From Bacillota bacterium (GTDB lineage: Bacteria > Bacillota_I > Bacilli_A > Erysipelotrichales > Erysipelotrichaceae), in assembly GCA_018065105.1 (NCBI GenBank), contig JAGHTX010000056.1, forward strand, positions 1 through 37,718: a DNA stretch of 37,718 nt, given 5' to 3'. Positions 901 to 14,442 of the stretch are shown here, one piece after another. The notes under the pieces were generated by a model. The model searched no databases. It saw only the letters and a list, made by a program, of their open reading frames with translations, and was not told the origin of the DNA. Every line of letters begins with the position of its first letter. Positions within the stretch are counted from its first letter, which is position 1. Both the position numbers and the translations under genes were made by a program.

Positions 901-2160
901 ATGGATAATCAAATATATATGTGTATAGATTTAAAGACGTTTTTTGCCTCTTGTGAGTGCGTGCATCGGGGATTGGATCCATTTGAAACGAATCTAGTCG
1001 TAGCCGACCCAAGCCGCGGTAATGGGGCTATTTGTTTAGCTATTTCACCCAAACTAAAATCACAAGGGATTCGTAATCGCTGTCGTATTTATGAAATCCC
1101 TAAAAATATCGATTATATCACTGCCGTTCCCAAAATGCGTATGTATATGGAATACGCAGCCAGAATCTATGAGATTTATTTAAAGTATGTATCTAAGGAA
1201 GATATTCATGTTTACTCCATTGATGAATCCTTTTTAAATCTAACGCCCTATCTAAAGCTTTATAATAAGACATCTTACGAAATTGCCAATCACATTAAAG
1301 ACGATGTTCTAAAAACGACCGGTATTACCGCTACCATAGGGTTAGGAACCAATATGTATCTGGCAAAAATTGCGATGGATATTATAGCCAAACACGTAGA
1401 CACGCACATTGCCTATTTGGACCAAAAGAAGTATCGACAAGAACTTTGGCACCATAAACCTTTAACGGATTTTTGGCAAATTGGAAGAGGGACTGAAAAA
1501 AGACTGGCCAAGCACGGCATTGAAGATATGTATGGGATTGCCCATTTTCCCGAAGAAGTACTCTATAAAGAGTTTGGGATCAACGCCAAATATTTAATTG
1601 ACCATGCCTGGGGAAAAGAGCCTACCACTATGGAAGAAATACATGGATATGAACCCGTATCCAAATCCGTTTCGAATTCTCAGGTCTTATTTGAAGACTA
1701 CAATTATAAAGATGCCTATCTAGTACTAAAAGAAATGGTAGAAATCAATGTACTTACCCTTTCTTCCCGACATCTTGTTACCAATCTTATTTCTCTTCGC
1801 ATCGGCTACTCTAAAGACATCCAGCCACCAACAGGAGGTGCACGTAAGATTAATCAAACAACCAATGTATATTCTATTCTTCTCAAAGAATTTTGTGCAC
1901 TCTATAAGGATACAACAAGAAGAGATACCCCTATTCGTACCTTGGCAATCAGCTTTGGAAACATCAAAGAAGAAAAATTTGAACAGTACGATCTCTTTAC
2001 TGACTTTGATGAAATTGAAGGCGAAAAAAATGTGCAGCTGGCCCTTTTGGATATTAAATCAAAATATGGAAAAAACGCGGTACTTCGAGGAATGAATCTT
2101 TGTGAAAAAGCGACCACACGCAAACGTAATACCCTAATTGGAGGACACAATGCCTACTAA
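901..2160 (+). CDS. Y-family DNA polymerase (UmuC/DinB/UvrX-like)
   Basis: MCIDLKTFFASCECV, YSIDESFLNLT, TATIGLGTNMYLAKIAMD and FWQIGRGTEKRLAKHGI motifs. AAGGAGGTGGAAT SD before ATG 901. Confidence 0.92.
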   Translation: MDNQIYMCIDLKTFFASCECVHRGLDPFETNLVVADPSRGNGAICLAISPKLKSQGIRNRCRIYEIPKNIDYITAVPKMRMYMEYAARIYEIYLKYVSKEDIHVYSIDESFLNLTPYLKLYNKTSYEIANHIKDDVLKTTGITATIGLGTNMYLAKIAMDIIAKHVDTHIAYLDQKKYRQELWHHKPLTDFWQIGRGTEKRLAKHGIEDMYGIAHFPEEVLYKEFGINAKYLIDHAWGKEPTTMEEIHGYEPVSKSVSNSQVLFEDYNYKDAYLVLKEMVEINVLTLSSRHLVTNLISLRIGYSKDIQPPTGGARKINQTTNVYSILLKEFCALYKDTTRRDTPIRTLAISFGNIKEEKFEQYDLFTDFDEIEGEKNVQLALLDIKSKYGKNAVLRGMNLCEKATTRKRNTLIGGHNAY

Positions 2161-13347: not shown

Positions 13348-14157
13348 ATGGAACGAAAAGAATATAAGACTCGATGTGGAAATATTGTATATTGGACCAA
13401 TACAGTACTTCTTTCTAGAAGAACACTCGTTTTTCTTCCTGGATTAAGTGCCAATCATACTTTATTTGAAAAACAAATCGAGTACTTTTCAAATACGTAT
13501 AATGTACTGGTTTGGGATGCACCAGCGCATGCGGCATCAAGACCTTTCTCACTTAATTTTACTTTAAAAGATAAGGCTATCTGGTTACACGAAATTCTAG
13601 AAAAGGAAGGAATGGTTTCCCCTATTCTTATTGGACAGTCGATGGGAGGCTATGTTTCCCAAATGTATCTTGAATTATTTAAAGATGCCTCTGGATTTGT
13701 GTCTATTGATTCTGCTCCCCTACAAAAACAATATTTGAAAAAGTGGGAGCTCCTATTTTTAAAACATACCGAAATCATGTATCGTGCTTTTCCTTGGAAG
13801 CTATTATTATATTATGGTTCTGTAGGTGTATCGGTCACAAAATTTGGACAGAAACAAATGCGAAAAATGATGGAAGAATATTCAAATGATCCACGGTATT
13901 ACTGTTCTTTGGTTGGTCATGGCTATCGTATTCTTGCACAGGCAATTGAATTAAATTTATCTTATAACATTTATTGTCCTTGTATTTTAATTTGTGGAAA
14001 AAAAGACCAAGCTGGGTTTGTGAAAAAATATAATAAAGAATGGTTAAAAAGAACAGGACTTACAATGTATTGGATCGATGGCGCTGGTCATAATTCAAAT
14101 TCGGATCAGCCAGAAATAGTCAATTCCATCATTCAGACCTTTGTGGAAAACACATAA
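13348..14157 (+). CDS. Alpha/beta hydrolase
   Basis: VFLPGLSANH, LIGQSMGGYVSQMYLE (GxSxG), C-terminal DGAGHNSN histidine; SD TAGGAG. Confidence 0.85.
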   Translation: MERKEYKTRCGNIVYWTNTVLLSRRTLVFLPGLSANHTLFEKQIEYFSNTYNVLVWDAPAHAASRPFSLNFTLKDKAIWLHEILEKEGMVSPILIGQSMGGYVSQMYLELFKDASGFVSIDSAPLQKQYLKKWELLFLKHTEIMYRAFPWKLLLYYGSVGVSVTKFGQKQMRKMMEEYSNDPRYYCSLVGHGYRILAQAIELNLSYNIYCPCILICGKKDQAGFVKKYNKEWLKRTGLTMYWIDGAGHNSNSDQPEIVNSIIQTFVENT

Positions 14158-14200
14158 AAATGGTTCCAATATATCTTACTTACTTTAATATATTGGAACC
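14157..14200 (-). terminator. Strong hairpin oriented as a minus-strand intrinsic terminator
   Basis: Perfect 13-bp arms GGTTCCAATATAT/ATATATTGGAACC with a 13-nt loop; followed by ATTTTTATG on the minus strand but by ACTATAG (no T run) on the plus strand. Confidence 0.75.
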
Positions 14201-14201
14201 A

Positions 14202-14222
14202 CTATAGAATGAATCTATTCAT
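14202..14222 (-). other. Micro-ORF MNRFIL with a strong SD, directly before the terminator
   Basis: Minus strand: CTAGAAAGGAG-CAATC-ATGAATAGATTCATTCTATAG. Confidence 0.4.
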
Positions 14223-14342
14223 GATTGCTCCTTTCTAGTTATTTTTATAGGGGGATATTTTTATGTAGTTGCTGATTTATTTATGTGTACATTGGTTTAT
14301 ACTCTTATTTCCTTTCTATTTTGTAAGTTATTTTGTACTTTC

Positions 14343-14370
14343 ATTATAAACCGTATTTTCTTCGAGTAAA
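14343..14370 (-). promoter_or_regulatory. Putative minus-strand promoter (-35 TTTACT, 16 bp, -10 TATAAT)
   Basis: TATAAT complement at 14343-14348; TTTACT complement at 14365-14370. Confidence 0.5.
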
Positions 14371-14407
14371 TAGATGTGGCCTGTTTGGTATGTCTAGTGG
14401 AAAAGAT

Positions 14408-14442
14408 GAACAAAGACCAATGCTTAGCACTGGTCTTCGTTC
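14408..14442 (-). terminator. Likely terminator of the PTS operon
   Basis: GAACAAAGACCAATGCT-t-AGCACTGGTCTTCGTTC, 17-bp arms with two mismatches, downstream of the PTS stop on the minus strand. Confidence 0.55.

Follow-up and report, generated by a model that had tools for sequence, protein, structure and literature searches.

A putative multicopy family of micropeptide-encoding transcription units, likely under LytTR control, in Floccifex and three sister genera

What occupies the minus strand between the terminator of a PTS gene and a hydrolase gene in the 37,718-nt stretch of Erysipelotrichaceae DNA analyzed here (the window; GenBank contig JAGHTX010000056.1)? A sequence-only reading of this locus had proposed an unannotated transcription unit containing a six-codon ORF (MNRFIL), and had offered a small regulatory RNA, a micropeptide or the remnant of a lost gene as its possible nature. 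We asked whether such a unit recurs in related genomes and, if so, what it would produce.

The complete unit, one copy of a multicopy family, spans 14156-14410 of the minus strand, on which all of its features are read. The TTTACT/TATAAT promoter was present at 14370..14343 as proposed, with the -35 element (14365..14370) and the -10 element (14343..14348) separated by a 16-bp spacer. The transcription start is predicted at about 14336, which gives a predicted RNA leader of about 114 nt (14223..14336). Both of the proposed AGAAAGGA segments were found, the first with AAGAG at 14302..14317 and the second at 14236; the first is common to the C40, C121, G004:C29 and G004:C104 copies. Downstream of the first segment lie an unpaired C-rich motif, UCCCCCUAU (14247..14255), the strong Shine-Dalgarno (SD) sequence AGAAAGGAG (14228..14236) and the ORF ATGAATAGATTCATTCTATAG (14202..14222), whose six codons and stop specify MNRFIL. 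The intrinsic terminator (14156..14201, with the U-tract at 14156-14160) stands directly 3' of this stop codon, and the hydrolase gene converges on it. Its hairpin had been described as a perfect 13-bp stem; the hairpin exists, but the stem (14201..14161) is slightly longer, with 14 Watson-Crick pairs and one G-U pair, and the T-run is indeed confined to the minus strand. The earlier account lacked the multicopy nature of the unit, a three-codon ORF in the leader (ATG TAC ACA TAA, encoding M-Y-T, 14281..14292) and a pair of direct repeats. Box 1 of the pair, TTCATCTTTTCCAC (14397..14410), was placed by the alignment of 26 copies at a lag of 21 bp and overlaps the end of the PTS gene's terminator; box 2, ACCAAACAGGCCAC (14376..14389), is degenerate in the window copy and ends 27 bp 5' of the -10 element.

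The window sequence taken alone is weak evidence for a unit, and it is the recurrence that decides. Promoter-like sites within 11-18 kb numbered 21, as against 24.6 in shuffled sequences. The folded window RNA was unusually stable (z = -3.5). A simple terminator scan missed the window hairpin, whose loop probably exceeds the length that the scan permits.

The SD, an ORF ending in N-[RK]-F-I-x and the terminator recurred in about 30 related units, located at unrelated loci in 8 of 273 Erysipelotrichaceae genomes, when the comparison with relatives suggested by the earlier reading was carried out. The carriers belong to the genus Floccifex, an isolate of the culturable pig commensal F. porci included, and to three sister genera. 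At least seven dispersed copies, counting that of the window, are present in the window's own genome: a search with the window stretch reached five further dispersed places (E 7e-50 to 3.5e-8), and a model search added one more at a contig edge. Elsewhere in Floccifex, five copies were found in the sister genome G004, three in the F. porci isolate G001, one in G002 and three in G003; the three other genera contributed three (G025), one (G288) and six (G060). At one G060 locus (G060:C7, L167:5690-6700), five micropeptide units form a tandem array that repeats about every 238 bp. The genes neighboring the copies belong to no common family. One copy site, at a penicillin-binding-protein-like gene/ispG-like locus, is common to G288:C46 and G060:C1, and another, at a GH1 gene, to G025:C231, G004:C104 and G000:C121. 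Among the first 17 copies, 15 had a readable downstream side, and 12 of these 15 face a convergent gene. On G004:C183, one copy adjoins a gene (L117:6434-7957, minus strand) for a 507-aa protein that starts with the double-glycine leader-like LDDQQLEDVDGG.

A degenerate SD-plus-ORF pattern with 2 mismatches allowed matched true copies only in the 273 family genomes, and its reversed control gave zero matches in the same set. Searching 316 genomes at the order level yielded no additional credible carrier. RNAalifold returned no structure from a MAFFT alignment of the copies, the terminator stems being shifted against one another by 1-2 nt; the model used for searching, R1, was therefore based on sequence only. 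The weak matches that R1 gave in the rest of the family (E about 1e-4 to 0.05) were set aside as chance-like, and the three that were read resemble ordinary coding sequence. No Rfam family scored above the gathering threshold for the units tested. In the window, the only Rfam match above threshold was a tRNA away from the unit, and those near the unit were below-threshold microRNA matches that we attribute to chance.

The coding signature of the ORF was then the strongest regularity of the family. Each unit consists of a box pair 21 bp apart, a promoter, a variable leader, a strong SD (almost invariant in alignment A1), an ORF of 6-14 codons and a terminator. The conserved C-terminus of the peptides is N-[RK]-F-I-x, where the last position is L, S or another residue. 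Six-residue forms are MNRFIL, MNRFIS, MNKFIS, MNRLIS, MNKYIS and MNKFIY, and a contig-edge copy encodes MNRYIS. Longer forms comprise (M)KNKFIS/L, MKDLTINRFIL, MKDFTINRFIL, (M)NNIGNQNKFIS, MRFDFSTNRFIQ, MKLDYSRNRFII and (M)KKRFDFSINR[AV]TI, so that N-terminal variation produces lengths of 6, 7, 11, 12 and 14 aa, always with the frame kept. Synonymous swaps were seen among AAT/AAC, AGA/CGA/CGG, TTC/TTT, ATT/ATC, CTA/TTA/TTG and TCT/TCA/TCG. In a set of 20 distinct cores, codon changes had a mean BLOSUM score of 2.32 in frame 0 as compared with -0.10 and -0.62 when read in the two alternative frames; column shuffling did not attain the frame-0 score in any of 1000 trials. This pattern of codon variation indicates that the micropeptide ORF is under purifying selection at the protein level, and it is very probable, therefore, that MNRFIL of the window is translated as a micropeptide and is no remnant of a longer gene. 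The micropeptide option of the earlier reading is thus strongly supported by the synonymous variation, the frame kept through N-terminal extensions and the conserved C-terminus. The lost-gene option is rejected, given that no relative carries a longer gene and that the stop codon abuts the terminator in every copy. The small-RNA option may hold as well, considering the multicopy nature, the regulator-type promoter, the structured and variable leader and the existence of box-driven RNAs lacking an evident ORF.

The remaining parts of the RNA are less uniform. Leaders fall into the window type, marked by the C-rich motif (UCCCCCUAU in the window, C40 and G004:C29; UUCCCCUAU in C28), hairpin types, a long-range-stem type, and a type with almost no leader. 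Some copies of the last type (G003:C130, G060:C1) still have SD, ORF and terminator; together with the frame-preserving, conservative variation, this makes the peptide the most constant part of the element. In the leaders of 13 of 26 copies, exactly two codons separate TAA from an ATG in the context ACC[AG]ATG, and 2 more copies have ATG-TAA; the codons of this three-codon ORF are variable and the position of its stop is fixed. In all of the 25 copies folded, the terminator stem begins 0-2 nt past the stop codon, and the stem is retained in all copies despite differing sequence, the changes being compensated. Immediately 5' of the SD lie bases that pair better with the last codons of their own copy than with those of other copies (permutation p<5e-5); this pairing is weak in the window copy but strong in some others. 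Hairpin P1 of the non-window leader types is likewise copy-specific (permutation p<5e-5). A pseudoknot between the P1 loop and GGUAU could be drawn in 10 copies, with one compensated case, and is absent from the window copy; its copy-specificity was not significant (p = 0.16), and we regard it as tentative. In the leaders of L129, L163 and L165, the 5' arm and loop of P1 are complementary to a downstream GGUAUUUAAUAUAGAU segment, and two exclusive, switch-like folds are therefore possible.

Upstream of the promoters, the paired boxes point to a common regulator, probably of the LytTR type. The 14-bp box consensus is ACCRAYTTTTCCAY, and the pairs lie 21 bp apart in the 26 fully read copies, with a lag-21 self-match of 8.54 versus 6.10 +/- 0.28 in shuffles. 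In 25 of 26 copies, the box end lies 27-29 bp 5' of the -10 element (or 48 bp, that is 27+21, for box 1); the -10 itself reads TATAAT or TATACT at a constant distance to the boxes, and TTTAC/TATTTA recurs at the -35 position in many copies. A like arrangement is published for LytTR regulators, whose ACC-type 9-bp direct repeats are separated by a 12-bp spacer and lie about 8-10 bp 5' of the -35 (PMC6193735); VirR boxes likewise sit just upstream of the -35 (PMC2838878). All 8 carrier genomes encode LytTR proteins. A LytTR gene linked to murA, the identity of the latter being based on reading of its protein sequence, was found in 45 of the 273 genomes, among them 7 of the 8 unit carriers; no copy of it was detected in the window's own metagenome-assembled genome (MAG; 93.8% complete, 244 contigs). 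Just downstream of the murA-linked LytTR gene, a unit-type box-promoter was found in G003, G025 and G206, and a version whose boxes are weaker or spelled differently in G288, G014, G024 and G208. In most genomes examined, this promoter precedes a predicted, conserved RNA of 300-450 nt with the core AGAGCGGUGGGAAGAUGA ... CUAUGGAGAGAAGNCUCCAAA, unannotated at L184:1800-2330 (G288), L187:1790-2200 (G060), L249 (G025), L248 (G014), L250 (G210), L252 (G209), L255 (G024), L256 (G208) and L261 (G206); the members tested had no Rfam match. Two other box-driven micro-ORFs, MAEPVSL (G003:C152:2796 onward, L222) and MDISESSDS (G002:C61:12756 onward, L207), also have stop codons abutting a terminator and may represent additional peptide families within this regulon. 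Box-driven RNAs lacking an evident ORF occur at G000:C134 and in G209, G210 and G192. The first of these, a short RNA of the window's own genome that ends in a terminator (L234, about 1480-1646, minus strand), is a candidate noncoding regulon member. Control of the units by a LytTR regulator is likely but not proven, since the window's MAG lacks the murA-linked gene and other LytTR paralogues are present. DnaA was also considered, given that TTTTCCACA occurs at the dnaA region in two relatives, and was set aside because the unit boxes are longer (ACC prefix), leave the last base free and take other forms in G060. Dense TTTTCCACA repeats lie 5' of dnaA, in an apparent origin region, at L127:3700-3950 (G001) and L128:3250-3340 (G003), and this sequence is apparently the DnaA box of Floccifex.

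Collectively, the comparative evidence indicates that the window locus is a real, unannotated transcription unit belonging to a new multicopy micropeptide-RNA family. The best model would be a LytTR-controlled small-RNA regulon whose commonest members encode an N-[RK]-F-I-x micropeptide. A LytTR-family activator, most likely the orphan murA-adjacent LytTR protein, would bind the repeats and turn on all copies together with the other small RNAs, among them the large RNA beside its own gene. The unit RNA would be translated into a formylated micropeptide, fMNRFIL for the window copy, and, as most copies lack a same-strand gene downstream, peptide and RNA would act in trans. We consider it probable that the unit is such a free-standing multicopy micropeptide gene, activated by LytTR along with other small RNAs and having trans-acting products. 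A uniform function of the RNA is unlikely to apply, given that the leader is strongly variable and nearly absent in some copies.

As to the peptide's molecular role, it can only be inferred. The conserved C-terminus and the fixed junction of stop codon and terminator suggest that the peptide might act on the ribosome during termination. If ribosome and hairpin influence each other there, as the strict junction suggests, brief stalling, RNA protection or read-through might speculatively result, and the C-terminal residues would matter inside the ribosome. A stronger version, in which the C-termini encoded by LytTR-co-activated genes of 6-14 codons act on the terminating ribosome and, via the terminator, serve as a genome-wide trans signal of translation or termination, appears to us rather unlikely.

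The main rival of the micropeptide reading is a family of csRNA-like, trans-acting small RNAs, in which the short ORF would be incidental or would stabilize the RNA through ribosome loading and the variable leaders would bind targets, by the C-rich UCCCCCUA in the window type and by the AUACC-loop hairpin in others. Precedents are the CiaR-dependent csRNAs (PMC8186281) and LhrC RNAs (PMC4132741), where one regulator drives multicopy RNAs, and the three small RNAs driven by VirR (PMC4877802). The box-driven RNAs lacking an evident ORF and the copy-specific pairings, both that within P1 and that between the last codons and the bases ahead of the SD, speak in the same direction. However, it is the amino acids that carry the strongest and most uniform constraint, and the leader is almost missing in some copies that retain SD, ORF and terminator. 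Moreover, the conserved segment is a sense SD and AUG rather than a csRNA-type antisense, and the C-rich motif is confined to some copies. We judge this explanation improbable.

Two further explanations fare much worse. In a leader-peptide attenuator, stalling at the micropeptide stop would control read-through of the terminator into a downstream gene. The abutting stop codon seen in all copies would suit this, as would the conserved residues, which would lie near the peptidyl-transferase center with the ribosome at the stop, but the convergent neighbors of 12 of the 15 resolvable copies leave no same-strand gene to regulate. This finding excludes regulation of a downstream gene as the general function and makes attenuation very unlikely. 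About equally remote is a MITE-like mobile or selfish repeat, or a dispersed bidirectional terminator having no cellular function: the copies are indeed dispersed, intergenic and mostly at convergent sites, with one tandem array of five, but the ORF is under purifying selection, the stems are compensated, some positions are common to different genera, and an unsystematic look at the copies noticed no terminal repeats or target duplications. A phage or plasmid origin was rejected, the viral, phage and plasmid collections searched containing no match to the unit. A type I toxin would be a hydrophobic membrane peptide of about 20-60 aa, as opposed to the 6-14 aa encoded here.

Among known systems, the mccA gene of microcin C has about seven codons and is likewise a free-standing ORF of tiny size; the present units differ from it in their many copies and their sequence, and no ThiF/MccB or exporter gene adjoined the copies examined. 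The VirR-controlled small RNAs of Clostridium perfringens (VR-RNA, VirT and VirU) differ in that the present units are paralogues encoding a peptide of 6-14 aa, with the abutting stop and terminator as a feature of their own, and no sequence homology was found. Streptococcal CiaR csRNAs and Listeria LhrC are organized like the present units, as short RNAs that stand alone, occur in several copies at scattered intergenic sites and are controlled by a regulator. Complementarity to ribosome-binding sites and AUG characterizes the csRNAs (PMC8186281), whereas the units here carry a sense SD, an AUG and a coding-constrained ORF. The LytTR systems HdrRM and BrsRM, whose loci are autoregulatory (PMC6193735), resemble the present units in having direct repeats that start with ACC, 21 bp apart and about 10 bp 5' of the -35. 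In contrast, the 14-bp box described here is longer, the putative regulator is murA-adjacent with no evident membrane inhibitor gene, and the targets are RNAs.

Six-codon genes escape annotation, and a multicopy, coding-constrained family, apparently under a regulator, is thus evidence of functional genes too small for gene finders and databases to handle. The family is similar in kind to small RNAs that occur in several copies under one regulator; what is unusual is its selected ORF, which has no more than six codons in the shortest forms. If this is true, the units would rank among the smallest free-standing protein-coding genes known. They also suggest that gut bacteria of the Erysipelotrichaceae have a LytTR small-RNA regulon not described before, for which there is a clear candidate regulator.
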